From positions 1 to 33,076 of the forward strand of contig CAIZLM010000035.1 in assembly GCA_903933805.1 (NCBI GenBank): a DNA stretch of 33,076 bases, given 5' to 3'. The notes beneath the pieces were generated by a model. That model searched no databases. It saw only the letters and a list, made by a program, of their open reading frames with translations, and had not been told where the DNA came from. Of this stretch, positions 1,241 to 15,290 are shown piece after piece. The stretch is from an uncultured Bacteroidota bacterium (GTDB lineage: Bacteria; Bacteroidota; Bacteroidia; Chitinophagales; Saprospiraceae). Made by a program: the position numbers and the translations under genes. Position 1 is the stretch's first letter. Each line of letters opens with the position of its first letter.

Positions 1241-1323
1241 TTGGTTGAGAAGACCAATAAATGCTGAAATTATCACAAATTTGGTGTCGTGCTGTACGTT
1301 TCTGATTGGCGACAACGCCAAGC

Positions 1324-1385
1324 AGGGCGCTTTTGCTTGATTTGATGGCTTTTGGCCTTGGTTGGGAAGACCCAGAAAGGCTGAA
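1324..1385 (+). repeat. Direct repeat R3, copy 1 (flanks the Rpn gene)
   Basis: 62 bases nearly identical to 2674-2735; the stretch from GGCTTTTGGCCTTGG through AGACCCAGAAAGGCTGAA is essentially invariant. A third, diverged partial copy (GCCTTGGTTGAGAAGACC) lies at about 1236-1266. In one frame it encodes a short peptide that appears at both loci, which I read as a repeat artefact rather than protein homology. Confidence 0.65.
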
Positions 1386-1411
1386 ATTGTTCCTTAGAAA
1401 AGATAGCGGAA

Positions 1412-1635
1412 CCAATGATATACTTCTGACGGGCACGAGCGAACTGACTGATATATCTTCAGTGCAAACAAGGTCTTTCATTGTAGGGGTTTTAGATGTT
1501 CCTGCCGGAGGTTTGACAACCATGCTCGACCACCGAATTGGAAGCGTGCCAAACAACTCAGTTTTAGGTACATCCAATAATGTCTCAGGTGCTGACGAGG
1601 TCTACACCCAGATAAAGATTCAGAAAATTCAATAG
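1412..1635 (+). pseudogene. Possible gene remnant between repeats, unrecognised
   Basis: An open frame ends at 1635. Its first third is repeat R3, but about 74 codons after the repeat read as coherent, low-complexity-free protein (for example a VGVLDVPAGGLTTM stretch). I do not recognise it and see no convincing start or promoter. It may be the tail of a disrupted surface-protein gene or chance. Confidence 0.2.
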
Positions 1636-1657
1636 GCTGTAAAGTCTGCTGGTTGGG

Positions 1658-1693
1658 TACGGCAAAAGTTGTCATCTTGCAACTTTTGCCGTA
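1658..1693. promoter_or_regulatory. 14-bp perfect palindrome abutting the Rpn promoter
   Basis: TACGGCAAAAGTTG (1658-1671) is the exact reverse complement of 1680-1693, with an 8-base loop. The right arm is followed by TTTTT, so it could fold as a terminator. It also overlaps the TATTTTTG promoter box at 1692-1699, so an operator for autoregulation is equally possible. A CTGGTTGGGT terminus-like string sits just before it, so it may be the end of a degenerate E copy. Confidence 0.55.
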
Positions 1694-1699
1694 TTTTTG
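1692..1699 (+). promoter_or_regulatory. Bacteroidota -7 promoter box for the Rpn gene
   Basis: TATTTTTG fits the TAnnTTTG consensus and lies 18 bases before the ATG at 1718. This spacing argues against the upstream TTG at 1697 as the start. Confidence 0.55.
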
Positions 1700-1717
1700 T
1701 ATCGAAATTTATCAATA

Positions 1718-2602
1718 ATGACAAAAAAACTAGTCCGCTTCGACTGGGCAATTAAGCGGCTCCTCCGCAACAAGGCGAACTTCGACATCTTGGAAGGCTT
1801 CCTCTCTGAGTTGCTCCATGAAGATTTTAAAATAAAGCAAATCCTTGAAAGTGAGGGAAATAAAGAAACCGAGGACGACAAGTTCAATCGGGTAGACATT
1901 CTTGTGGAAAATAAAAAGGGTGAATTGGTCATCGTAGAAATTCAGAATACTCGTGAGGCTGACTACTTCCAACGAATGCTTTATGGAACGGCCAAGGTTA
2001 TCGTGGAGCATATCGCCGAAGGACAGCCATATTCCCAAGTCAAAAAAGTCTACTCCGTGAATATCGTGTACTTTGACCTCAGTCAGGGAGATGACTACGT
2101 TTATCATGGGACCACCACCTTCGTTGGCATACACAGCAACCATGAACTGGAACTGTCGGATAAGCAGAAGGAACTTTTCAAGAAGTCATCGGTATCCGAC
2201 TTGTATCCAGAGTACTATGTGATAAAAACCAATCGGTTCAATGACGTCGCCAAGGATACGCTGGACGAGTGGATATACTTTCTGAAAACGGCAGAAATCA
2301 AAGACGAATTCACAGCAAAGGGACTGAAATCAGCCAGCCAAAAACTGGACATTCTGAAATTAGACCCTGCTGACCGCAAGGAATATGACAGATATATGGA
2401 GGGGCAGCGAAGCGACGCGAGTTTTGTGGAGACGGTACAGTTGGAAATTACAACGGCTGTAAATGAAGCATTGAAAAGCAGAGCGGAAGAAATTGCAGAG
2501 AATGCCCTACAAAAAGGCTTTACAATTGAAGTTGTCTCTGAAATTACCGGACTTTCGATTGCAGAAGTTCAAAACATTGCCAGCAACCTAGATAAAATGT
2601 AA
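1718..2602 (+). CDS. Rpn family recombination-promoting nuclease / putative PD-(D/E)XK transposase
   Basis: The 294-residue protein begins MTKKLVRFDWAIKRLLR, the usual opening of this family, with a segment of the FDILEGFLSELL type just after. The PD-(D/E)XK core is visible as Asp60 (RVDILVE) and a Glu74-x-Gln76 pair (VIVEIQ), followed by a predicted helix with YFQRMLYG. The C-terminal 70 residues are helical and end with a GLSIAEVQNI helix-turn motif typical of the family. Rpn proteins of other bacteria are DNA endonucleases that stimulate RecA-independent recombination, and some act against phage; the role here is inferred. ATG 1718 is chosen because the promoter box at 1692-1699 precludes the upstream TTG. 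The TAA stop is itself the first bases of an E-family terminus, and R2/R3 repeats flank the gene on both sides. An in-frame ATG at 2396 could start a 68-residue C-terminal product. Confidence 0.85.
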   Translation: MTKKLVRFDWAIKRLLRNKANFDILEGFLSELLHEDFKIKQILESEGNKETEDDKFNRVDILVENKKGELVIVEIQNTREADYFQRMLYGTAKVIVEHIAEGQPYSQVKKVYSVNIVYFDLSQGDDYVYHGTTTFVGIHSNHELELSDKQKELFKKSSVSDLYPEYYVIKTNRFNDVAKDTLDEWIYFLKTAEIKDEFTAKGLKSASQKLDILKLDPADRKEYDRYMEGQRSDASFVETVQLEITTAVNEALKSRAEEIAENALQKGFTIEVVSEITGLSIAEVQNIASNLDKM

Positions 2603-2612
2603 CTGGTTAGCT
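2599..2612 (+). repeat. Family E terminus overlapping the Rpn stop codon (E4)
   Basis: GTAACTGGTTAGCTTGG matches the E2 and E6 terminus, and its TAA supplies the Rpn stop codon. The rest of an E element is missing; R2 begins at once. Confidence 0.5.
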
Positions 2613-2665
2613 TGGTCTTCAATCCCATTGGAATACTGCCTGGACTTTATGCCCCAAACCTAGCC
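2613..2665 (+). repeat. Direct repeat R2, copy 2
   Basis: Matches 1188-1240, including TTCAATCCCATTGG and GACTTTAT, with about 10 differences concentrated at the end. Confidence 0.6.
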
Positions 2666-2673
2666 TCACAATC

Positions 2674-2735
2674 AGGGTGCTTTGGCTTGGTTTCAAAGCT
2701 TTTGGCCTTGGTTGGGAAGACCCAGAAAGGCTGAA
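2674..2735 (+). repeat. Direct repeat R3, copy 2
   Basis: 62 bases matching 1324-1385 with about 7 differences; the final 40 bases are almost identical. Only 8 bases separate it from R2 here, compared with 83 in the upstream copy, which is interrupted by a partial R3. Confidence 0.65.
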
Positions 2736-2772
2736 CAGTAGCTGCGGGGGTGAAAGGCAAGCTTACACGACC

Positions 2773-4455
2773 TTATTGCTTTCTTTTCAACGCATCGGGG
2801 TTGAGCGAGATGGTAGCTTCCACCTCCCAGTTGGCGCGCAGGGGTTCCAGTTTTTTTGAAACGATTTTTTCGGGTTGGCGGCGAGACCAATAATCGCCGG
2901 TATCCCAGCGACCGTTGCCATTTTGGTCTTCCAGAAGCCGTACCGTATAAGTTGCGAGGTTGAGTCTGTTTAAGACCAACGTATATTCCGGTTCTCCAGC
3001 CACCCAGTGTCGTTCTTCCACGAGGTTATTGCCGTTGAGCAGTTGCACGACGTAGGCTTGTGTGGGGCGCAGATTTTCAATTTTCAGGCTGAGCCCGCCG
3101 AGCTGTTTGTCGGTTGGAACAGCGAGGATGCGGCGCAGGGTATCCGTGTTGGTTTGTCCCCAGAAGTCGGTCACGGCGCCCGGCTGAATCTCCAAGTGGT
3201 AGTTTTTTCCGGGCAGCCAAGGGTATTGAAGCGTTATTTGTCGCGGTGCAGCGCTGTCTGTTTTCAGCGAAAAACCCTGCACCCGAACGCTGTCAAGTAG
3301 TAACATCCAGCGGGTGCTGTCTGTTGCGACCACGGGATAATTAAACTGAAAAACAGCGGATTTTTGTGGATTTTGAGTGCTGGTGGTTACAGGGGGGGCT
3401 GGAACGGGTGCCGTCTGAGGTGCTTTTCTGCCAACGGTTGGCGCTGGCACATCGCTGGCAAGTCGGAGGGTGTGTTTTAGGAGGAAATCCTCCCGGGAGA
3501 GTGGTTTAACCGACACGGTATCGTTGTTGACAAATATTTTCCACGCGGTAGGCTGGTCAATATCGTACCATACTTGAATGGAGTCCTGCGATTTTTCCAC
3601 CAGCAATCTCAGGCCGGCGACGGGTTCTGGGCGTATGATTGCCGAGTCTGTGGTGGTGTTGAATGGCAGGCGAACCACGCCATAAGCGCCCGTGTTTTTT
3701 TCTCCGAGCCGGAACTTGGGTTGGTTTTTAAACAGTCGAAACAGCAGGGAACCGCGCATAGAGTCGCGCACTTGTAGGGCCGTATCCAAAAATCCGATGC
3801 GTTCATTTTCACCGTCCCAGCGGAGATTTTGGTCCAGGTCTTCCACTGCTACCACCTTAAAACGGCCTGCTTTGATGTTGCGTATCTCATAGCTCCCTGA
3901 TTTATCTGTCCGGGAAAAATAGTAAGGGCGTTCCTTGCGCACGACGCTGTCGGCCAGGATATCGTACAGCATGACAGCGATGTTGTCGATGGGTTCGCTG
4001 GTGAAAGCATCCACCACTTTCCCAGCGCTGCGGAGGCTATCGATGTAATCGCCTGTAGAGAAGACAAATCGAAGGTCTTTTGCGGGGTTGCCTTCGTGGA
4101 GATCTTTAACCGCCGTGCCAAAATTGATGGTATAGGTGGTGTTTTCCCGGAACTGTTCGGCTTTGTCAAATTTCACGACCACTGTTTTGCCTTTTAGCGT
4201 CACCTCAGGCCGTTTCACCAACGGCGGTGACACCATCACCTGTGCTGCGGCTTCCGAGAGCGTGATCCACTCGTCAAACTTGAGTTCGAGGTGCTTGTCT
4301 TGAAATCGCGTGGCGTAATTGGGGGTGCTGCCCAAGGGAACAACCGTGGGCGGTGTGGTGTCTTTGGGGCCACCCGTGGGCGCACCCTGGCGTGCACAGG
4401 CGCACAAGCCGCAGACCACCACCAATATTTTAAAGTGACGTAGTTTCTTCTCCAT
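2773..4455 (-). CDS. Ig-like domain lipoprotein (Big_5/SbsA-type N-terminal domain)
   Basis: 560 residues starting at ATG 4455. The N-terminus is a short hydrophobic signal with a lipobox LCAC, so Cys20 would be lipidated. CARQGAPTGGPKDTTPP follows, the hallmark start of a family common in Bacteroidota. Residues of about 38-140 form an Ig-like domain of the Big_5 type (from TPPTVVPLGSTPN to RFVFSTGD). About 145-220 resemble a carboxypeptidase-regulatory-like fold (SGSYEIRNIKAGRFKVVAVED). The remainder is beta-rich and ends with a DQNGNGRWDTGDYW segment, a calcium-loop-like motif that also occurs near residue 200 (DLDQNLRWDGENER). It is probably an outer-membrane or surface lipoprotein of unknown role. 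A longer start at 4479 is excluded because the TACCTTTG promoter box lies at 4466-4473, between the two. It converges on the Rpn gene. Confidence 0.85.
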   Translation of the reverse strand: MEKKLRHFKILVVVCGLCACARQGAPTGGPKDTTPPTVVPLGSTPNYATRFQDKHLELKFDEWITLSEAAAQVMVSPPLVKRPEVTLKGKTVVVKFDKAEQFRENTTYTINFGTAVKDLHEGNPAKDLRFVFSTGDYIDSLRSAGKVVDAFTSEPIDNIAVMLYDILADSVVRKERPYYFSRTDKSGSYEIRNIKAGRFKVVAVEDLDQNLRWDGENERIGFLDTALQVRDSMRGSLLFRLFKNQPKFRLGEKNTGAYGVVRLPFNTTTDSAIIRPEPVAGLRLLVEKSQDSIQVWYDIDQPTAWKIFVNNDTVSVKPLSREDFLLKHTLRLASDVPAPTVGRKAPQTAPVPAPPVTTSTQNPQKSAVFQFNYPVVATDSTRWMLLLDSVRVQGFSLKTDSAAPRQITLQYPWLPGKNYHLEIQPGAVTDFWGQTNTDTLRRILAVPTDKQLGGLSLKIENLRPTQAYVVQLLNGNNLVEERHWVAGEPEYTLVLNRLNLATYTVRLLEDQNGNGRWDTGDYWSRRQPEKIVSKKLEPLRANWEVEATISLNPDALKRKQ

Positions 4456-4465
4456 AAAGCTGGGG

Positions 4466-4473
4466 CAAAGGTA
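4466..4473 (-). promoter_or_regulatory. Bacteroidota promoter of the Ig-like lipoprotein gene
   Basis: On the minus strand TACCTTTG matches TAnnTTTG, with TTTG 17 bases upstream (4491-4494) as a -33 element. It lies 10 bases before the ATG, so the leader would be only a few bases. Confidence 0.65.
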
Positions 4474-4494
4474 CAACACTCTTCATAGACCAAA

Positions 4495-4521
4495 GGCGGC
4501 GGTGCTGAGCGCACCACCGCC
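4495..4521. terminator. GC-rich hairpin followed by T run (plus strand)
   Basis: GGCGGCGGTGC (4495-4505) pairs with GCACCACCGCC (4511-4521) with one wobble across a 5-base loop, followed by GTTTTTG. It has terminator form on the plus strand but sits just upstream of a minus-strand promoter, where no plus-strand transcript is obvious. It could insulate or regulate that promoter. Confidence 0.4.
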
Positions 4522-4834
4522 GTTTTTGTTGATCAAACGTTCAGGGTATCAAGGATGATTACCGGCAGAGACGGAGTAAAAAAAGGAGCCATAAGCAACA
4601 TACGGGAGAATGGTTAGAAAAAGTCGGATTAGGCAATAAACCGGCCTTGGCTCGTCCGAAATGTCCGAATAATTACCGATATTCCACCAATTTTTTTTTG
4701 GGTCGCGGGTGATTTTTTGTAATATGTAAGGATAATGTTTGTTTGACTACCGCTTTCTGTTCAGCGCCGCCGTTTCCTCAAAATTGCTTCAAAATCCAGT
4801 TTGAAAAAATTTTTGCTTGTATCCTGTTGGTTTG
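4522..4834. other. AT-rich intergenic stretch, no gene seen
   Basis: The 425-base gap between the divergent lipoprotein and giant-protein genes contains the hairpin above and A/T-rich runs, such as a run of T around 4690. I find no credible reading frame, RNA gene or family-E copy in it. Confidence 0.5.
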
Positions 4835-4881: not shown

Positions 4882-7800
4882 ATGAACATATTTTTTCGTT
4901 TAGCGCTTGCGGCGTCGCTGCTTGTAACTGTTCTGTCCAAATCCAGCGGGCAATGTACCATCACGGTTGATGCCGGAGACGATATTTATCTGTGCTCGCC
5001 GCCATCGCCAACCCAGCTCAGTGGAAGCATTTCGGGTGACTACCTGAGTTTCATGTGGACACCTGTGACGGGTCTGACGGGTGCCAGCACCTTGCAGCCG
5101 ACGGTGAACGTGACGCAATCGACCTTTTATGTGCTTTCAGCCAGCGCTGCTGATTTGAACAACAACCTGGTGGTCAACGGCGATTTTGAACAGGGGAACA
5201 CCGGTTTTACAAGTGATTATGGGTATAGTCCTGGCAATTTGGTGCCCGAGGCTATTTATGATGTATTGGACAATCCGCAAGACGATCACCCGAGTTTTGC
5301 GCCCTGCGACGACCATACTTCCGGAGCAGGCAGTATGATGGTGGTCAACGGCGCCGGATCGCCCAACCAGGATGTTTGGTGCCAAACGGTCTCTGTCATC
5401 CCCAATGCCCAGTATGTGCTTTCTGCCTGGGTTACCTCTGTGGTGGCCGGATCGCCTGCGCTGCTGCAGTTTTCCATCAATGGCGGCGTGGTTGGGCCCA
5501 TTTTTAATGCCCCTAGCGCTGTTTGCAATTGGCAAAATTATTTTCAAGTCTGGAACAGCGGTGCAAACTCCAGCGCCACCATCTGTATTGTCAACCAAAA
5601 TACCGCGTTGGGCGGCAATGACTTTGCGCTGGACGATATTGTGTTCGCGCCTGTGTGTGTCGTTCGGGATACCGTTCGGATACAAGTGGTGAGTGTCACC
5701 GCCATGGCTGCTCCCGCAGTGGTCACCTTGCCCTGCGAGGGTGCTACTTTGACCCTCAATGGAACAGGCTCCAGTACCGGGACCAACATTGCTTACCTAT
5801 GGGAAACGGCCGAAGGCAATATTGTCAGCGGCGCAACCACCCTCAATCCCGTCGTAAATGCTCCTGGGTTGTACACCCTGACGGTTGCGTACACGGCTCC
5901 TGATGGGACGGTTTGTGAAAAAATGGCTTCCGTTAATGTGGTGCTCAGTCCCAACCCGCTGTCTGCCTGGATCACCCCGCCGGCGCCCTTGGGTTGCGGA
6001 TCCACCACCACCACCCTCATTGGCAACTCCAATCAGTCGGGCTTTTCGGTGTTTGCCTGGGAGACCCTCGACGGCAACATCGTCTCCGGTGCGAATCAGA
6101 AAAACTGTGTGGTCAATCAGGTGGGTACCTATGTGCTCACCGTCACCAATACCAATACCGGCTGCACGTCGTCTGCCGAAATACTCGTGACCGCAACCAC
6201 CACGCCACCCATCGCCATCGCCATGGTTTCAGATACGCTCACCTGTTTACAAGATACCATCACCCTTTCTTCCACCGGCTCTTCCACCGGAACCAATATT
6301 GCGTACGCCTGGACGACCACCAATGGGCATTTTGTTGTTGGTCAAAATTCCCCAACATCGCTGGTCAATACGGTCGGCACCTACATACTCAATGTTACCA
6401 ACACCACCAACAATTGTACCTCCAGGGATACTGTCACGGTCGTGGGAAATACCGCACTGCCGTTCCTGGCTGTGCCACCAACGCAGCAAATTACCTGCAG
6501 TGCAGACACCATCCCGCTGAACATCGTTCTTTCCCCGCCACCCATGGTACTCATCCAATGGACGGCCTCCAATGGTGGCCACTTTGCCTCGGGTCAAAAC
6601 ACCCCCAGTCCAACGGTTGATGCCGCGGGCACCTACGTGGTGGTGGTGCAAAATCCTTCCAATGGGTGTACGTCGAGTGGAACGGTGGTGGTTACCGCAA
6701 ATATGAATCACCCAGTTGCGACTATTTTGCCCCCCGGCGGAATCACCTGTCAGTCGTCCAGCGTGGTACTCTCCGGGAATGGATCGAGCAGTGGAACACA
6801 GTTTGGCTATGCATGGATTGCGACCAACGGCGGCAATATAGTTTCCGGAGAAAACACCCTAAATCCGTTGGTAAATTCAGCCGGTGATTATACACTGACG
6901 GTGCTGGATAGTCTGAACGGCTGTGCCAGTTCCGCCAACACCCTGGTGGTGGCCGATACCAATGTCGTGATCGTTGTTGCCAATGCGCCGGATACGCTCA
7001 GTTGTATCATTCAAACAACCTTGTTGAATGCCAATGGATCCAGCAGCGGTACAGGCATTGACTATGCTTGGAGCACCTCCAATGGGAACATTGTCAGCGG
7101 TGCAGACACCCAAAACCCGCTGGTGGACCAGCCGGGCATCTACCAGCTGATCCTCACCAATACCGTTAACGGTTGTGCGGGTATAGACCTTGCAGTGGTC
7201 CTCGACAATGTCTTGCCGCCGCTAATTTCCATCGCATCGCCCTCCCCCATCACTTGTGCAAATCCTGTTCAAGACCTGGTAGTTTACAACACCAGCCCCT
7301 CTGGCAGTTTCGTGTACCTCTGGACGGCGTCCAATGGTGGTCACATTGTATCAGGCGAAAATGCCCTGGTGCCAACCGTTGATGCGCCTGGAACGTACAC
7401 CCTTTCCACCACCAACCTTTTCAATGGCTGTATTGCCACATCCAGCACAACGGTAGCCCTAGACACAATTGTTCCGACCGCCGTTGCTGGTGTGCCAGGA
7501 TTGCTCACCTGCGCGCAGCAAACCCAATTGGTGGATGGTTCAGCGTCTTCCACGGGCAGTTCGTTTACCTACCAGTGGGTAGCCTCCAATGGAGGTAACA
7601 TTGTAGGAAACAACAACGGCATCACGGCCACCGTAGATGCTCCCGGCACCTATCTATTGGCCGTTACCAACCTGTCCAATGGTTGCGTAGGCCATGACAC
7701 CATTGTGGTGGGGCAGGACGTGGTGGCGCCAATCGCAGATGCCGGATTGCCCCAAACGATTACGTGCAGCACAGCCCAGTTGTCCCTGATGGCCAATGCA

Positions 7801-10800
7801 CCCAATCCTCCAACCACACTCCTATACCAGTGGTTTACATCCGATGGTTCCATCGTTAGTGCCGCCAATTCGGCCCAGATTGTGGTAGATGCACCTGGAT
7901 ATTATGAGGTCGCGGTGACCAATCCATCCAATGGCTGTAGTGCCCTTGATACGGTTCAAATGTTCAATGACACCCAGTTGCCGGCACTTTCCCTTTCCAC
8001 GCCAGCCACCTTAACCTGTACGCTGGCCGCCCAAAATCTGGCGGTCCAAAACCAGTCCTTGCCGGGTGCTTTCTCCTATCTCTGGTTTGCCACCGGGGGC
8101 GGGCACATCGTATCCGGCGGCAACAGCCTTTCTGCTACCATTGATGAACCGGGGACGTACACCCTCATCACCACGAACCTGGCAAATGGCTGTACGGCGA
8201 TCCTCAGCACCCCGGTATCGCAAGACATTGCGCCCCCTGTCGTGGTGGTGGCCAATCCTGTCCCCATCACCTGTGTCAACCCCAGTCAGGTGGTACAGGC
8301 GCAAAACCTGGCAACAACCGGCGTTTTTTCCTACAACTGGACGGCTTCCAATGGCGGCAATCTTGTTTCCGGTAGCAATACCCTGACACCCGTGGTGGAC
8401 CACGGGGGAAATTACACCCTCGTTTCCACCAACCTCAGCAACGGCTGTAGCAGCAGCAATACCGTTTCGGTGGCGCAAAACAACACCTTGCCCGATGCCA
8501 ATGCCGGCGCTGACGCAACCCTTACCTGCAACCTTGTTTCCATGACCCTCAGCGGCGGCGGAACCGGCGCGGTCAGCCTCAATTATAGTTGGCTGGCGTC
8601 CAATGGTGGACAAATTGCCTCCGGAGGTAGCACCCCCGCTCCCGTCATTGATGCCCCCGGCACCTATACCCTTACGGTCATCAATCCCGACAATGGGTGC
8701 ACCGACACGGATGTAGTGGAGATATTTAACGATGCAGGCGCTCCAACCGTCAGCGTTGGAACGGCGCCCATGCTGACCTGTGCACTGACCCAAACGCCCC
8801 TCAGCGCAACCGCCAGTGCAGGTGCAACCTTTTCCTATCTTTGGACTGCCACCAATGGCGGCAACATCCTGACGGGGCCCACCACCCTATCCCCGATCGT
8901 CAACGAACCAGGCGTTTATACCCTGGTGGTGACCAACGCCGCCAATGGTTGTACCCGTTCCGGCAGTGTCACCGTGTTGGAAAATATCCTCCCGCCCATC
9001 GTTGATGCCGGCGCTTCCGCTACACTTACCTGCGCCGTGACATCGCTCTCTCTGACCGGGGTTAGCAGCGGGGGCGCAGCCACCTACGCCTGGCAGACAG
9101 CCGGGGGCAACATCGTCTCCGGCGCCAACAGCCTGACCCCCACCGTCAATAAAACCGGCACCTACACCCTTACAGCCACCCTTTCCTCCAATGGCTGTAC
9201 GGCCAGTGATATGGCCATCGTTGGCATTGATACCATCGCTCCAACATTCTCCATTCAACAACCCGCATTGCTGACGTGTACCCAACTGACCATCACCCTC
9301 ACGGGGTTGGTTCAGCAGCCCGGCATTGGCAACTTCACCGCCAGCTGGAACACCACAACAGGGCATTTTGTCTCCGGACAAAACAGCCTCAATGCCGTGG
9401 TAGATGCCCCCGGAACGTATATTTTGAGCATCCAAAATGGCCAAAATGGCTGTAACGCAGCCAAGGCAGTTCCAGTTTTTCAAAACATCAACCCTCCCAC
9501 AGCCCTGACGGGCCCTGCGGGCAATATCACCTGTGCGGTTCAAAGCCTGATGCTCAATGGCAGCGGCTCTTCCACGGGAACCGGTTTTTCGTATCTCTGG
9601 ACAGCTACTGCAGGCGGCCAACTGTTGAACGGGGGAACCACCCTCAGCCCCACGGTCGGCAGCGCAGGCACCTATATCCTTCAGGTAACCAATACTGGTA
9701 CGGGTTGTACGGCATCTTCTACAACCACGGTGGGCAGTAATACCACGCCGCCCACAGTGGCCATCGCCCCGCCAGCGGTGCTGACCTGTATCCAGAACAA
9801 CGTGACCTTAAATGGCAATGGCTCCAGTACAGGGGCTAATTTTACCCCCTCTTGGACGACCGCTTCGGGCAATATTGTTTCCGGCCAAAACACCCTCATG
9901 CCTGTGGTTAATACACCCGGAACCTACCTTCTGACCGTTCTAAACGGCCAAAACGGATGCTCGACGACCGCTCAAACACTGGTTACCCAAAACATTGTTG
10001 CTCCCGGCGCCGAAGCGGGTACCGCGGAGGATTTGCACTGCAACCGACCCACCATTGCGCTGAATGGCACCAGTTCAACCAGTGGCAACATGGTTTTTAG
10101 CTGGTCCAGCAACAATGGCCATTTTGTTGGGGGGAGCAACGCACCTTCCAGCACCGTGGATACTCCGGGGCAATACACCCTGACGGTCAGCAACCCGCTG
10201 AATGGCTGTACTTCCACAGACAATGTCGTGGTGAATGCAGTACCCCTACCGGCTTTCGACCCCACCCTCGTGCAGCCAAACTGCAACGACCGCAATGGGG
10301 CGGTTGATTTCGGCAGTGTGACCGGTGGAAAATCGCCGTTTGAATACGCGTATGATGGAGGACAACTGTTTGGCAACCAAACCAATATTGACAACCTGCC
10401 GCCTGATACCTATACCCTAGTGGTACGCGATGCATTTGGTTGTACCGCTGCCGAAACGGTCACCATCAATCCGCCGTTTTTACCTTCGCTGAGCATCCCG
10501 ACGGTGGCGACGCTGTTGGTGGGTGACTCCATCCGTTTAGATCCTGTTACGGACATATTGCCTGCCAATATTGCCAGTTGGCAATGGTCGCCTGCAGAGG
10601 GTTTGTCGTGTACCGACTGTGCGCGTCCGTGGGCCAAGCCATTCAGGAGCACGAATTATACCCTTATCGTCCGTGATGTCAACGGATGTGATGCTGAAGC
10701 GCAGGTGCCGGTGCGCGTGGATCGGAAGCGCAACTTATATGCACCGAATGTATTTTCTCCGAACGGCGATGGGGAAAACGATTTTTTCACGCTTTTTGCA

Positions 10801-11019
10801 AGGGGGGTAAAGGAGATACAAGCGCTTCGGGTTTATGACCGTTGGGGCAGCGAACTGTTCCTCGGCGAACACTTGCAGCAGGGCGACGAGCCCAGTGGCT
10901 GGGATGGTACATTCCGAGGTTCTCCACTCACCCCAGCGGTTTTTGTCTGGTGGGCTAAAGTAGAGTTTGCCGATGGCGAAGTTGAAATTTATTACGGGGA
11001 TATTACGCTCGTGCGCTAA
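4882..11019 (+). CDS. Giant T9SS surface protein: lectin-like module, 18 Ig/PKD-like repeats, gliding-type C-terminal domain
   Basis: 2045 residues. A signal peptide of about 24 residues (FFRLALAASLLVTVLSKSSG) precedes QCTITVDAGDDIYLC, which opens a PKD-like domain. Residues of about 92-258 form a jelly-roll, carbohydrate-binding-like module beginning NLVVNGDFEQG and ending GGNDFALDDIVFAPVC. I count 18 tandem repeats of about 84 residues (about 263-1785), each with the pattern (I/L)TC ... F.Y.W.(A/T)..G..I(V)SG ... PGTYTL.V.N..NGC, so each carries two conserved Cys. A SprB-like repeat (about 1786-1866), another PKD-like domain and a gliding-motility-associated C-terminal domain (about 1953-2045; APNVFSPNGDGENDFF, YDRWG, GWDGTF) complete it. 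The C-terminal domain marks it as T9SS cargo. An adhesin or cell-surface fibre is the likely role, by inference. The paralogue downstream has the same order of modules but 9 repeats. Confidence 0.93.
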   Translation: MNIFFRLALAASLLVTVLSKSSGQCTITVDAGDDIYLCSPPSPTQLSGSISGDYLSFMWTPVTGLTGASTLQPTVNVTQSTFYVLSASAADLNNNLVVNGDFEQGNTGFTSDYGYSPGNLVPEAIYDVLDNPQDDHPSFAPCDDHTSGAGSMMVVNGAGSPNQDVWCQTVSVIPNAQYVLSAWVTSVVAGSPALLQFSINGGVVGPIFNAPSAVCNWQNYFQVWNSGANSSATICIVNQNTALGGNDFALDDIVFAPVCVVRDTVRIQVVSVTAMAAPAVVTLPCEGATLTLNGTGSSTGTNIAYLWETAEGNIVSGATTLNPVVNAPGLYTLTVAYTAPDGTVCEKMASVNVVLSPNPLSAWITPPAPLGCGSTTTTLIGNSNQSGFSVFAWETLDGNIVSGANQKNCVVNQVGTYVLTVTNTNTGCTSSAEILVTATTTPPIAIAMVSDTLTCLQDTITLSSTGSSTGTNIAYAWTTTNGHFVVGQNSPTSLVNTVGTYILNVTNTTNNCTSRDTVTVVGNTALPFLAVPPTQQITCSADTIPLNIVLSPPPMVLIQWTASNGGHFASGQNTPSPTVDAAGTYVVVVQNPSNGCTSSGTVVVTANMNHPVATILPPGGITCQSSSVVLSGNGSSSGTQFGYAWIATNGGNIVSGENTLNPLVNSAGDYTLTVLDSLNGCASSANTLVVADTNVVIVVANAPDTLSCIIQTTLLNANGSSSGTGIDYAWSTSNGNIVSGADTQNPLVDQPGIYQLILTNTVNGCAGIDLAVVLDNVLPPLISIASPSPITCANPVQDLVVYNTSPSGSFVYLWTASNGGHIVSGENALVPTVDAPGTYTLSTTNLFNGCIATSSTTVALDTIVPTAVAGVPGLLTCAQQTQLVDGSASSTGSSFTYQWVASNGGNIVGNNNGITATVDAPGTYLLAVTNLSNGCVGHDTIVVGQDVVAPIADAGLPQTITCSTAQLSLMANAPNPPTTLLYQWFTSDGSIVSAANSAQIVVDAPGYYEVAVTNPSNGCSALDTVQMFNDTQLPALSLSTPATLTCTLAAQNLAVQNQSLPGAFSYLWFATGGGHIVSGGNSLSATIDEPGTYTLITTNLANGCTAILSTPVSQDIAPPVVVVANPVPITCVNPSQVVQAQNLATTGVFSYNWTASNGGNLVSGSNTLTPVVDHGGNYTLVSTNLSNGCSSSNTVSVAQNNTLPDANAGADATLTCNLVSMTLSGGGTGAVSLNYSWLASNGGQIASGGSTPAPVIDAPGTYTLTVINPDNGCTDTDVVEIFNDAGAPTVSVGTAPMLTCALTQTPLSATASAGATFSYLWTATNGGNILTGPTTLSPIVNEPGVYTLVVTNAANGCTRSGSVTVLENILPPIVDAGASATLTCAVTSLSLTGVSSGGAATYAWQTAGGNIVSGANSLTPTVNKTGTYTLTATLSSNGCTASDMAIVGIDTIAPTFSIQQPALLTCTQLTITLTGLVQQPGIGNFTASWNTTTGHFVSGQNSLNAVVDAPGTYILSIQNGQNGCNAAKAVPVFQNINPPTALTGPAGNITCAVQSLMLNGSGSSTGTGFSYLWTATAGGQLLNGGTTLSPTVGSAGTYILQVTNTGTGCTASSTTTVGSNTTPPTVAIAPPAVLTCIQNNVTLNGNGSSTGANFTPSWTTASGNIVSGQNTLMPVVNTPGTYLLTVLNGQNGCSTTAQTLVTQNIVAPGAEAGTAEDLHCNRPTIALNGTSSTSGNMVFSWSSNNGHFVGGSNAPSSTVDTPGQYTLTVSNPLNGCTSTDNVVVNAVPLPAFDPTLVQPNCNDRNGAVDFGSVTGGKSPFEYAYDGGQLFGNQTNIDNLPPDTYTLVVRDAFGCTAAETVTINPPFLPSLSIPTVATLLVGDSIRLDPVTDILPANIASWQWSPAEGLSCTDCARPWAKPFRSTNYTLIVRDVNGCDAEAQVPVRVDRKRNLYAPNVFSPNGDGENDFFTLFARGVKEIQALRVYDRWGSELFLGEHLQQGDEPSGWDGTFRGSPLTPAVFVWWAKVEFADGEVEIYYGDITLVR

Positions 11020-11106
11020 CGGCATTGAAAAACGCCACTGGCCTTGTTCAATCCGTGTCATGCGTCAACCAAACTTACCAGATCAAAACATCAACATACG
11101 GTGGAA

Positions 11107-11149
11107 CCGCTACCTTCACGGTTGTGTTATACAACTGTGAAGGTAGCGG
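11107..11149. terminator. 19-bp inverted repeat downstream of the first giant gene
   Basis: The arm 11107-11125 (CCGCTACCTTCACGGTTGT) pairs with 11131-11149 with a single G-T wobble over a 5-base loop. No clear T run follows, so it may protect the mRNA 3' end or act with the next hairpin rather than terminate alone. Confidence 0.5.
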
Positions 11150-11222
11150 GAAATAGGAATGTTGCTCGCCCATTCGAAGTCGAGAAGTGCCGCTTTTTTT
11201 CTTGTCTTATGCTGTACAAATA

Positions 11223-11254
11223 CCCTGATTTTTCGCCAAAAATCAGGGCATTTT
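11223..11254 (+). terminator. Intrinsic terminator-like hairpin after the first giant gene
   Basis: CCCTGATTTTT (11223-11233) pairs perfectly with AAAAATCAGGG (11238-11248) over the loop CGCC, followed by CATTTT. It lies 9 bases before the next promoter box, separating the two giant genes transcriptionally. Confidence 0.6.
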
Positions 11255-11256
11255 AA

Positions 11257-11264
11257 TACCTTTG
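11257..11264 (+). promoter_or_regulatory. Probable promoter of the second giant surface protein
   Basis: TACCTTTG is an exact TAnnTTTG match just after the terminator hairpin. It would give an unusually long leader of about 190 bases before the ATG at 11460. Confidence 0.45.
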
Positions 11265-11459
11265 GGGTTTCAATTTTAGTTGTTATCTCTCGGCCATTCA
11301 GCCCATTTAGTTGGAACGCCACTAAACCCTTGAATTCACGCAACTGGTTACAAATTCACAGTGAAAAAAAACAGGGCTTACTATCGCAGTCTAGCTTGCG
11401 CTGCTGTACAAAGTGAAGGGTCTGATATGGCAGGGGAAAGATTTTGAAGTGCTCCAGTC

Positions 11460-14400
11460 ATGACAACACACCGTAGTTTATGCCTGTTGGTTTGCTGTAT
11501 GGCAACAGGTTTGCAAAAAATGAATGGGCAATGTCCCATTACAGTGGATGCTGGTTTAGACATCAGTGTCTGTGCTTTCCCTGCATCAACCCAACTCAAC
11601 GCCAATATCTTTGGTGATTATCTGGGCTTTTCCTGGACACCCGTCACAGCTGACAGCACCCTGGAGACCTTTGTGAGTCCCACACAACCCACTTCCTACG
11701 TATTGTCGGCAACGGCAGCAGATTTGGACCACAATCTAGTCGTCAACGGCAATTTTGAACAGGGAAATATCGGCTTCAACAGCGAGTATGGATACAGCCC
11801 TTATGATCTATTTCCGGAAGGCTTGTACGATATCGGGTACAACCCACAGGACGACCATCCGGCCTTTTCGCCTTGTTTCGACCATACTTCCGGTACCGGA
11901 AAGATGATGATTGTCAACGGCGCCGGCGATGCCGACAAAAACGTTTGGTGTCAAAAGGTGACGGTCGTTCCGAACAAAGAATATGTACTATCTGCCTGGG
12001 TAACATCCGTTTTTGCTGGTTTCCCGGGAATACTGCAGTTTTCCATCAATGGCGCCACTGTTGGGCCACTTTTTGTTGCACCCCAGTTGGTGTGTAGTTG
12101 GGATAACTATTTTCAGGTTTGGAACAGCGGCTCCAGCACCTCCGCCACCATCTGTATTGTCAACCAAAATTTTATTTTGGGTGGCAATGACTTTGCCTTG
12201 GACGATATTGTTTTTGCACCTGTTTGTACCGTGGTTGATACCATCCAGCTAGCAGAAGTCAGCATCACGGCTGTTGCGCCTAATGTCGTTGTCCTGCCCT
12301 GTCAGGGCGCATCTGTGACCCTCAGTGGCACGGGATCTACCACAGGACCCAATGTTTCCTATGCCTGGGCAACGGCAAACGGTCACATGGTAAGTGGGGA
12401 AAACACGCTGAATCCAGTGGTTGATGCGCCGGGGATATACACCCTAAGGGTCTTGAGGCCCTCTAGTGACGGTACCATCTGTGAAAAAACAGCCTCCGTT
12501 CAGGTGGTGCCCAGTACCAGTCCACTCGTTGTATCCATTGACCCACCCGCCCCCTTGGGCTGCAGTTATTCCACGACCAGCCTCACCGGCCACTCCAATC
12601 AACCCGGCTTTGAACAGTATGCCTGGGGTACAACCGATGGCCTCATTGTATCCGGTGAGAACCAGATGAATTGTGTCGTCAGCCAGGGTGGTTCCTATTT
12701 TGTAACGGTGACGAACACCAGTACCGGTTGTACAGCTTCTGCCTCCGTGGCGGTAACAGCCAACACGACGCCACCCCTGGCTTTCGCCCAAGTTGCTGAT
12801 ACGCTCACGTGCAACAGAGATACTGCGGTGATTTTATCAGCTGGTTCTAGCACAGGCGCCAATATTTCATACGCTTGGAAAAACACCGGGGGACAGGTTT
12901 TCGGCACAGACGCAACATTCGTTGTGGATACAGCTGGGGTGTATGTGCTCCATGTAACCAATACCAACACCAACTGTGTAGGACTCGATACCGTCACCGT
13001 GGTTGAAAACAAAGCGCACCCCTACTTAGAACTGCCAACAGCACAACAGATAACCTGCCGTTTTGATACCATTCAACTGACCATTGATATTGGACCATCA
13101 CCCATTTTATTGGTGCAGTGGACAGCAACCGCTGGCGGCCATTTTGTGGCCGGATCAGACACCCCAAATCCGTTGGTAGATACCGGCGGAACGTATGCGG
13201 TGGCAGTGGAAGATCCTTCCAATGGCTGTGTTTCCACCGGAGTGGTGGTGGTTACCACAAACATGAACCATCCAGTAGCAAGCATCGCAGCCCATGGGGC
13301 GGTTACTTGCCAATCGCCCATTGTCACTTTATCAGGGAGTGGATCGAGCAGTGGCGCACCATTCGGATATGCTTGGACGACGGCGAACGGCGGCAATATT
13401 GTTTCCGGGGAAAACAGTTTAGAAGTTTCGGTCAATTGGGCCGGCAACTATACACTCACCATATTGGATAGCCTCAATGGCTGCTTTGTGTCGGCCAGTA
13501 CCCAAGTGATGACAGACACCAACGCTGTTCATACCATCGCCAATGCCCCCGACACGCTCACCTGTAACTTGCTGTTGTCTCAGTTGAATGCCGATGGCTC
13601 CGTTGTTGGCATGAACTACACCCATACGTGGACCACCACCACCGGGCACATCGTCAGCGGTGCAGACACTCCAATGCCAAGCATTGATCAGCCCGGAAGT
13701 TATCAATTGCTGCTCACCAACAATGACAATGGTTGTTTCGGAATCGATCTAGCGGTGGTAATGCAAGATATTGTTTCGCCGCAGATCACTGCCACGCCAC
13801 CGATACCACTGACATGTTATCAGCCCACACAAATACTGGTATTTCAGAACAACACTCCGACAGGCAACTTTTTTTATGCCTGGACGACTTCATTTGGCGG
13901 ACAAATAGATGCCCTTACCCCAACCATTGATACCGCTGGTATGTATATTTTAACGACCACTAATCTCACCAATGGCTGTACTTCGATTGATAGCTTTCCG
14001 GTTGTAATGGACATGGGCACGCCAACTGTTGATGCAGGATTGCCCGGCCTGCTCACCTGTGCCCAAACCGCCTTGGTATTGGATGGAAGCGCCTCCTCTG
14101 CCGGTCAGGTATTTGCTTACCATTGGTCTGCTTTGTCGGGAGGCAGCATTGTAGGCGACGTAACGGGTAATACGGCCATCGTGGAAACTCCGGGTACTTA
14201 CATCCTGCATGTTACAGACATTGCCAATGGTTGTTTTGACCATGATACCGTTGAAATAAAGCAGGACATTGCGATCCCCATGGCAGATGCCGGATTGCCG
14301 GATACCATTACTTGCAACACCCCTCGGATAACTTTACTGGCGAATGGCCCCAATCCACCAGCAACACTGTCGTACCACTGGGATACTCCCGCTGGCCCAC

Positions 14401-15290
14401 ATCCGTTGGATATTGCAAAAATAGACGTAACAGCACCGGGAGTGTACACGCTCACCGTGACCAACCCGTTCAATGGTTGTTTTGCCAGCGACAGTGTAGC
14501 CATAAACGCCATTGCGATGCCCTCCTTCCAGCCCACACCCACGCAGCCAACGTGTCATATCCAATATGGAACCGTGGAGATCGGCACTATAAACGGCGGA
14601 GTAGCGCCATTCCAGTACTCCCTTGACGGAGGACAAACTTTTGACAACAAGTCCTATTTCAACAAATTGTCACCAGGCACTTATTCCCTGGTGGTACGGG
14701 ATGGAATTGGTTGTACAAGCGTGGAGACCGCTACCATAGATCCGCTTTTCATACCCACCGTATCCATTCCAAAGGTCGATACCCTATTTTTGGGTGATTC
14801 CATCTTGTTGGAACCTGTTACGAACATTTTGCCTTACAACGTTCAATCCTGGCAATGGTCGCCATCGGATGGGTTGTCATGTTCCGACTGTGCGCATCCG
14901 TGGGCGGCACCCTTTAGAAGCAAGATATATACCCTGACAGTCCTTGACAACAATGATTGTCCTGCAGAATCGGAAGTACGGGTGCTGGTGCATCGCAGAC
15001 GCATACTCTATGCCCCGAACGTTTTTTCTCCTAATTTTGATGGGGAGAACGATTTTTTTGCGATTTTTGGAAGGGGCATCAAAGAAATAGAGCGCTTACA
15101 GGTGTTTGACCGCTGGGGGAACCAATTGTTTGTTGGGAAGCATCTGCAAGCGGGTGACGAGCAAAGTGGCTGGGATGGCACGTTTCAAGGGCGACTTATG
15201 GATCCTGCGGTCTATGTCTGGGTATCGAGTGTAGTATTTATAGACGGTGAGGTTGAGTTGTTCCATGGTGACATCTTGCTGGTGCGATAA
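11460..15290 (+). CDS. Giant T9SS surface protein paralogue with 9 Ig/PKD-like repeats
   Basis: 1276 residues. A signal peptide (RSLCLLVCCMATGLQKMNG) is followed by QCPITVDAGLDISVC. A jelly-roll module (about 91-257, NLVVNGNFEQG to GGNDFALDDIVFAPVC) is highly similar to that of the upstream gene. Nine repeats of about 84 residues follow (about 260-1017), each with paired Cys (LTC...NGC), then a SprB-like module (about 1018-1097, FQYSLDGGQTFDN), a PKD-like domain and a gliding-motility C-terminal domain (about 1183-1276; APNVFSPNFDGENDFF, FDRWG, GWDGTF, ending GDILLVR). Repeat by repeat it aligns in order with repeats 1-9 of the upstream protein; repeats 10-18 have no counterpart. This points to tandem gene duplication followed by repeat gain or loss. 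It is presumably T9SS cargo with the same adhesive role. It is convergent with uvrB, with only 15 bases between stops. Confidence 0.93.
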   Translation: MTTHRSLCLLVCCMATGLQKMNGQCPITVDAGLDISVCAFPASTQLNANIFGDYLGFSWTPVTADSTLETFVSPTQPTSYVLSATAADLDHNLVVNGNFEQGNIGFNSEYGYSPYDLFPEGLYDIGYNPQDDHPAFSPCFDHTSGTGKMMIVNGAGDADKNVWCQKVTVVPNKEYVLSAWVTSVFAGFPGILQFSINGATVGPLFVAPQLVCSWDNYFQVWNSGSSTSATICIVNQNFILGGNDFALDDIVFAPVCTVVDTIQLAEVSITAVAPNVVVLPCQGASVTLSGTGSTTGPNVSYAWATANGHMVSGENTLNPVVDAPGIYTLRVLRPSSDGTICEKTASVQVVPSTSPLVVSIDPPAPLGCSYSTTSLTGHSNQPGFEQYAWGTTDGLIVSGENQMNCVVSQGGSYFVTVTNTSTGCTASASVAVTANTTPPLAFAQVADTLTCNRDTAVILSAGSSTGANISYAWKNTGGQVFGTDATFVVDTAGVYVLHVTNTNTNCVGLDTVTVVENKAHPYLELPTAQQITCRFDTIQLTIDIGPSPILLVQWTATAGGHFVAGSDTPNPLVDTGGTYAVAVEDPSNGCVSTGVVVVTTNMNHPVASIAAHGAVTCQSPIVTLSGSGSSSGAPFGYAWTTANGGNIVSGENSLEVSVNWAGNYTLTILDSLNGCFVSASTQVMTDTNAVHTIANAPDTLTCNLLLSQLNADGSVVGMNYTHTWTTTTGHIVSGADTPMPSIDQPGSYQLLLTNNDNGCFGIDLAVVMQDIVSPQITATPPIPLTCYQPTQILVFQNNTPTGNFFYAWTTSFGGQIDALTPTIDTAGMYILTTTNLTNGCTSIDSFPVVMDMGTPTVDAGLPGLLTCAQTALVLDGSASSAGQVFAYHWSALSGGSIVGDVTGNTAIVETPGTYILHVTDIANGCFDHDTVEIKQDIAIPMADAGLPDTITCNTPRITLLANGPNPPATLSYHWDTPAGPHPLDIAKIDVTAPGVYTLTVTNPFNGCFASDSVAINAIAMPSFQPTPTQPTCHIQYGTVEIGTINGGVAPFQYSLDGGQTFDNKSYFNKLSPGTYSLVVRDGIGCTSVETATIDPLFIPTVSIPKVDTLFLGDSILLEPVTNILPYNVQSWQWSPSDGLSCSDCAHPWAAPFRSKIYTLTVLDNNDCPAESEVRVLVHRRRILYAPNVFSPNFDGENDFFAIFGRGIKEIERLQVFDRWGNQLFVGKHLQAGDEQSGWDGTFQGRLMDPAVYVWVSSVVFIDGEVELFHGDILLVR

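Follow-up and report, generated by a model that had tools for sequence, protein, structure and literature searches.

The stretch of DNA analysed here (the window) comprises 33,076 nucleotides, positions 1 to 33,076 of contig CAIZLM010000035.1, and comes from an uncultured bacterium of the family Saprospiraceae whose genome (assembly GCA_903933805.1) has 4.2 Mb on 336 contigs and is 97.4% complete. According to the list of open reading frames the window contains two large genes, A and B, in tandem on the plus strand and 440 bases apart, and we could confirm that both frames are open at the coordinates of Table 1. The two proteins have a common layout: a hydrophobic start is followed by an N-terminal module (N-module), tandem repeats, a C-terminal segment and a CHU_C/TIGR04131 type B sorting domain of the type IX secretion system (T9SS). 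The stalk domains belong to the Ig_7 and PKD families; there are 18 of them in A, 82–87 amino acids (aa) long, and nine in B (81–87 aa), and in the whole protein A the Pfam families Ig_7, PKD and K319L-like_PKD score over cut-off. A preliminary description, made from the sequence alone, had reported tandem paralogues with 18 and 9 ordered repeats, and this observation is confirmed by the open frames, the segmentation and the pairing of the repeats. We suggest that both proteins are T9SS adhesins and that B arose by tandem duplication, lost nine repeats and has since evolved faster under constraint; as a whole we regard this account as quite probable.

Table 1. Features of genes A and B (positions in the window; the name SprB-like segment was given in the preliminary description)
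Feature	Position	Strand	Description
Gene A	4882..11019	+	2045 aa: N-module, 18 Ig/PKD-like repeats, SprB-like segment, type B sorting domain
A N-module (residues 25-282)	4954..5727	+	Immunoglobulin (Ig)-like domain, then jelly roll like carbohydrate-binding modules (CBM) 4/16/61; proposed distal tip
A repeats 1-18 (residues 283-1799)	5728..10278	+	Segmentation
Block in A missing from B	7849..10146	+	Mid-repeat 9 to mid-repeat 18; ends approximate, from alignment
A C-module	10279..11016	+	SprB-like segment, cysteine-containing segment, CHU_C type B sorting domain (10741-11016)
Hairpin between A and B	11107..11149	.	19-bp stem; fold -24.4 kcal/mol over 81 surrounding bases, z -8.3
Gene B	11460..15290	+	1276 aa, shortened paralogue with 9 repeats
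B N-module (residues 25-278)	11532..12293	+	67% identity with A N-module
B repeats 1-9 (residues 279-1030)	12294..14549	+	Segmentation
Proposed deletion scar in B repeat 9	14400..14451	+	A9-like before, A18-like after; span of near-equal best breakpoints
B C-module	14550..15287	+	CHU_C type B sorting domain from 15012 onwards

When the repeats are compared in order, B1–B9 have a mean identity of 56% with A1–A9, whereas offsets of one to nine repeats give 32–35%, and the value of the diagonal pairing was reached by none of 100,000 random assignments in a permutation test. The one-to-one correspondence proposed earlier is thus borne out, as is that of the flanking modules: compared from residue 25 on, the N-modules are 67% identical, and the C-modules 61%. 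The preliminary description had further proposed a phylogeny of all 27 repeats, in which repeats 1–9 of the two proteins should pair as sisters. This is the case for seven of the nine pairs (1–6 and 8), but B7 is placed beside A7 and A10, with A11 just outside (96/91), and A9 and B9 do not form a resolved pair. The likeness of A10 and A11 to repeat 7, which had also been noticed before, is evident from this grouping and from identities of 53% and 48%. After addition of the 18 repeats of a relative (genome G026, repeats G1–G18), positions 1–6 and 8 of A, B and G026 each cohere, A7 pairs with B7, and G7 groups with A10 and G10; B9 is found with A9 and G9 (88/73) inside a wider group that includes A18 and G18 (90/86). 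The support values of these repeat trees are limited by the shortness of the alignment.

The ninth repeat of B is a hybrid. In a gap-tolerant alignment the match switches from A9 to A18 within this repeat: the left half scores 88 against A9 (runner-up 47) and the right half 133 against A18 compared with 81 against A9, and for the whole repeat a mosaic of A9 and A18 reaches 236, ahead of the next mosaic (195) and of any single repeat (at most 169). In the control, each of the 16 halves of B1–B8 scores highest with its own partner in A, one of them (the left half of B6) tied with A17. Profiles for each position in the array (slot), built from 27 proteins including A, give the same division, as the left half of B9 is assigned to slot 9 (25.8 versus 18.7 bits) and the right half to slot 18 (46.1 versus 36.5 bits); unsplit, B9 receives the label of slot 9. 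The hybrid has a normal length of 81 residues. The partnership of A9 and B9 in the preliminary description therefore holds for the front half of B9, whereas the back half is like A18. Similarly, A is indeed longer by nine repeat lengths, but in view of the hybrid the additional block begins about halfway through repeat 9 and ends about halfway through repeat 18, and does not coincide exactly with repeats 10–18. Most simply, a single in-frame deletion would have joined the two half repeats and left a hybrid domain of normal length.

Repetitive genes are at risk in an assembly of 336 contigs, and one could ask whether B is an artefact of assembly or binning. We consider this most improbable: both genes lie on one contig, they share only 65% of their nucleotides over 1195 aligned codons, and no exact direct repeat between A and B is longer than 28 bases. 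Inside A the longest has only 17 bases, which makes a collapse during assembly unlikely.

To which side the repeat number changed, by gain in A or by loss in B, had been left open. A first profile detected homologues in 43 of 60 genomes and a deeper profile (E up to 1e-60) in 40 of the 42 genomes of the genus, the own genome being included in both counts. The remaining two genus genomes (G023 and G028) gave no homologue with the deeper profile, and two others (G004 and G062) have only a divergent relative and no A-type protein. Thus an A-type protein is present in 38 of the 42 genomes: 27, among them A, have 18 repeats, three have 15 and eight are cut by contig ends. The counts were made with a single hidden Markov model derived from the repeats of A and B, and two loci, L079 and L082, were assigned to genomes G064 and G063 by equal frame lengths. 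The 18 slots can be told apart across species, as leave-one-out profiles assign 467 of 486 repeats correctly, compared with 27 expected by chance (the weakest is slot 10 with 21 of 27), in a set that includes near-identical species pairs. In a joint tree of the N-module, repeats 1–7 and the C-module, A and B are sisters (100/99) and are nested in a clade where the other proteins sampled carry either 18 or 15 repeats; separate trees of the N-module with repeats 1–7 (100/99) and of the C-module (97/86) also give A and B as sisters. These trees corroborate the gene duplication that had been proposed. Since 18 repeats are usual in the genus, the slots are recognizable across species up to slot 18 and A and B are nested among such proteins, we conclude that B lost nine repeats.

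The opposite course, in which a nine-repeat ancestor was retained in B and A grew to 18 by internal block duplication, would agree with the resemblance of A10 and A11 to repeat 7, as a local expansion would produce it. Nevertheless, it has very little to recommend it. The repeats A10–A18 are not a copy of A1–A9, because comparison of A with itself at an offset of nine gives 35% identity, within the range of other offsets and no higher than these, and so we rejected a block copy within A. Slots 10–18 are also recognizable in species that branch outside A and B, and the outgroups with 18 repeats contradict the gain. Moreover, the strong likeness of A7 and A10 is particular to A (55%, compared with 28–46% in the other 28 proteins and 46% in the near relative G026).

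The countable arrays of the A type, apart from the 27 with 18 repeats, are the three with 15 repeats in G001, G013 and G017; the frame of G013 begins at a contig edge and the array of G017 is split over two frames. The protein of G001 reads as slots 1–8 and 12–18 and that of G017 likewise across both frames, with slot 7 tied. G013 is compatible with the same reading, although two of its labels deviate: the eighth repeat is assigned to 17, in a tie with 8, and the twelfth, for which 15 would be expected, to 13, in a tie with 11. In the joint tree G001 lies inside the clade of A and G013 outside, which implies either two losses of slots 9–11 or a transfer of the allele between species. Slots around 9–11 thus seem to have been lost on two separate branches; G001 and G017, the latter absent from the tree, may go back to one event. 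A hybrid junction is not claimed for these forms, as the right half of repeat 8 favours slot 11 over slot 8 by just 3.2 (G001), 1.7 (G013) and 2.3 bits (G017), less than the errors seen with B8. As a separate observation, the three 15-repeat forms (L043, L059 and L064 in G001, G013 and G017) fit a loss of slots 9–11, which are among the slots less conserved between species (37–41%), and the two frames of L064, 848 and 997 aa, point to a frameshift or an assembly error. Some genomes, for example, G008 and G013, have older and more divergent second copies; that of G013 could not be placed in slots and has 15 repeats at one cut and 16 stretches at a looser cut. The very divergent protein of G004 has 18 repeats with little slot identity. 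Its repeats 13–16 (locus L075) include pairs that are 60–77% identical with the total still at 18, which suggests recent homogenization within this array.

After the duplication B changed faster than A. In a relative rate test with G026 as outgroup (1171 sites) 204 changes are unique to B and 76 to A, a 2.7-fold difference (chi2 58.5), and the direction is the same with L079, G025 and G020 (chi2 38.7, 43.2, and 48.0). The end branches in the joint tree are 0.63 for B and 0.19 for A, and in nine of ten modules A is closer to G026 than B is, with a tie in repeat 7. The lower similarity of B could also be explained if it were a decaying duplicate that has no role of its own and in which relaxed constraint permitted the deletion as well as the faster rate. 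It would be in line with decay that none of the other genomes among the 42 of the genus has a second A-type copy of such length, eight A-type copies being cut by contig ends. On the contrary, the frame is intact over 1276 codons, nonsynonymous divergence from A (dN 0.30) is well below synonymous divergence (dS about 1.8), the sorting domain scores over cut-off and the hybrid repeat has a normal length (81 aa). We therefore consider decay rather unlikely, and B, as judged by its sequence, is a fast-evolving yet constrained copy.

Both proteins are most likely surface adhesins. The sorting domain TIGR04131 scores 42.5 bits in A and 42.2 bits in B (cut-off 35) and CHU_C 43.1 and 42.4 (cut-off 27); genome-wide there are 41 matches to CHU_C, of which 36 are over cut-off. 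The genome has a T9SS translocon gene, with SprA_N in one large frame, and 12 matches to PorP_SprF. According to the cited parts of two studies, type B substrates rely on PorP/SprF-like shuttles, and one shuttle can also serve orphan substrates (PMC12618676, PMC9143113). The models made with AlphaFold2 for the N-module with repeat 1 and for repeat 18 with the C-module have a mean pLDDT of 94 each; their pTM is 0.78 and 0.64, and thus the angles between domains are unsure. The second domain of the N-module (model residues 69–235) is a jelly roll nearest to CBM61 and an engineered CBM4-2 with a VIA-align Z of 15.7 (the two best rows have root mean square deviations of 2.6 and 2.4 over 139 and 142 aligned residues), and further Foldseek matches are CBM16, CBM22 and a porphyran-binding module, the latter named as a T9SS C-terminal target domain protein in a sequence search (E 0.03). 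In addition, 23 of the 27 sequences in the alignment match the Pfam family CBM_4_9 with E values of at most 0.1, the best being 1.2e-5. Thus, we suggest that A and B are fibrillar adhesins with a tip of an Ig domain and a jelly roll that may bind carbohydrate, a rod of Ig/PKD-like domains and a C-terminal sorting domain which would let the T9SS translocate the protein, while a PorP/SprF-like shuttle would hold it at the surface. A is the 18-repeat gene of most of the genus. It was probably duplicated in tandem in the present lineage, and the shortened copy diverged faster under remaining constraint, so that the cell would have a long and a short version of one kind of adhesin, possibly with separate roles. 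A different hook protein measures about 180 nm with 49 domains of another type, as given in the cited part of PMC13319060; by analogy, at about 3.7 nm per domain, the stalks of A and B would reach lengths of about 66 and 33 nm. The preliminary description had proposed surface fibres of two lengths that share a tip. This would agree with the sorting domain and the lectin-like N-module of both proteins, but at 67% identity the tips differ at about one third of their residues.

Several points weigh against this account. The half-repeat test with slot profiles is a loose one that adds little to the evidence for the hybrid, because it assigns the two halves of B8 to wrong slots (differences of 3.3 and 6.6 bits). 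The value of dS is near saturation, so that dN/dS between A and B is rough, and the G+C content at third codon positions (A 0.61, B 0.53) is not accounted for. The duplication is not datable from neighbouring genes because none common to the orthologue loci was recovered: a search of 40 such loci, many of them short, for nine genes that neighbour A and B in the window gave matches to the N-module only. The hydrophobic N-termini were judged as signal peptides by eye. CBM_4_9 scores 15.6 bits in A itself, below the cut-off of 25.9, and sugar binding thus rests on the fold; the fold is in turn no proof of it, since the VIA-align rows with scores nearly as high include meprins, cyclases and a tailspike that share this jelly roll. 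Finally, none of the 12 PorP/SprF matches of the genome is on the contig of A and B, and there is no adjacent sprF-like gene. As orphan type B substrates are known (cited part of PMC12618676), A and B are, from what their contig contains, probably orphans as well.

Among the closest known systems is the grappling hook protein GhpA, for which structures from Aureispira sp. CCB-QB1 are available (PDB 9flp, 9fly and others). Residues 285–819 of A match residues 1413–1933 of GhpA with an E value of 1.2e-39, and a profile of repeat 18 and the C-module matches at 5e-120 in 16 stretches, many of them within 1250–4669 and one in the C-terminal region 5801–5884 (i-Evalue 1.1e-9). The five top Foldseek matches of the C-terminal model are GhpA fragments as well, with TM-scores of 0.33–0.40 of the query. 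Aureispira is a genus of the Saprospiraceae, the family that also names many relatives of the N-module: among the best 80 of 454 named relatives most are metagenome genomes labelled Saprospiraceae, Lewinellaceae, Saprospirales or Bacteroidota. A and B thus add relatives of GhpA in a family that is seen here mostly as metagenome genomes. According to the portion used of a review (PMC11205867) the hook protein is secreted by the T9SS, which is in favour of the reading of A and B as T9SS adhesins. In contrast to A and B with 2045 and 1276 aa, GhpA has 5898 residues and forms a heptamer in Aureispira (cited part of PMC13319060). A and B also carry the CBM-like N-module, for which one profile search gave no match in GhpA.

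In a wider sense the pair fits, by its domain content, fibrillar adhesins that use the T9SS, a fibrillar adhesin being described as a stalk with an adhesive domain (in the cited part of PMC8286594). Similar proteins are SprB and other proteins with a type B C-terminal domain of Flavobacterium johnsoniae, T9SS type B substrates that are known or predicted adhesins (PMC12618676, PMC9143113, cited parts) and of which three of 12 are orphans with no adjacent sprF-like gene, as stated in the part of PMC12618676 referred to here. A and B differ from these by the CBM4/16/61-like tip, which has the fold of the CBM4, CBM16 and CBM61 jelly rolls at 12% and 17% identity in the best rows, and by an array of 18 slots that is nearly fixed in the genus. 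In periscope proteins, too, a rod of tandem domains determines how far out the tip is held, and its repeat number changes; their repeats are highly identical and vary between strains (cited part of PMC9704523). By this measure A is not a periscope protein, as the identity between its repeats is 37% on average. The mean is 32–41% within each of 29 proteins, in which 494 of 522 repeats have exactly two cysteines, and the repeat number is nearly fixed across species. In a partial literature collection no paper on this protein pair was found by title. The pair is real and well resolved, ordinary in kind and unusually clear in its history.

Notably, most of the genus has kept the same eighteen distinct slots, and there is a natural variant of half the length. 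That 27 of the 30 countable arrays keep exactly 18 repeats, in place despite a mean identity of 32–41%, points to selection on the length of the array or on each slot, whereas the repeat number of periscope-type surface rods varies readily. The pair of A and B is a natural test of this, with like tip and anchor, half the stalk and one deletion with a readable scar. It is conceivable, although we think it improbable, that the array is a molecular ruler in which each slot has its own role in a GhpA-like multimeric fibre and only length changes by multiples of three domains are tolerated; in that case A and B would be a long and a short appendage of one cell. The shortened countable arrays, with 15 repeats in three genomes and nine in B, are indeed 18 minus three or nine. 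Nevertheless, the events are few and there is no period of three repeats in the sequence, and such a step would therefore have to come from the packing of the domains. A superunit of three repeats, hinted at by some pairs in A, was ruled out on 29 proteins (mod-3 difference -0.0003, p 0.52).

Beyond the near relatives, the N-module is found on frames of widely varying length and repeat content (loci L094–L157), and tip and stalk seem to have been freely recombined there. A 2081-aa frame in another genome (G019:C284:29176-32943) has three matches to the N-module.

Regarding the surroundings of the two genes, the DNA upstream of A and that upstream of B have only short matches to each other, and overall G+C is 0.555 in A and 0.508 in B. 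A gene for a PD-(D/E)XK nuclease family transposase lies at 1697–2602, a few kb upstream of A, and the neighbour of A at 2773–4479 on the minus strand codes for a bacterial Ig-like domain (Big_5) with DUF2141. Downstream of B a uvrB-type gene follows on the opposite strand. The hairpin between A and B occurs at a single place in the genome, as determined by a genome search, and is perhaps the terminator of A.

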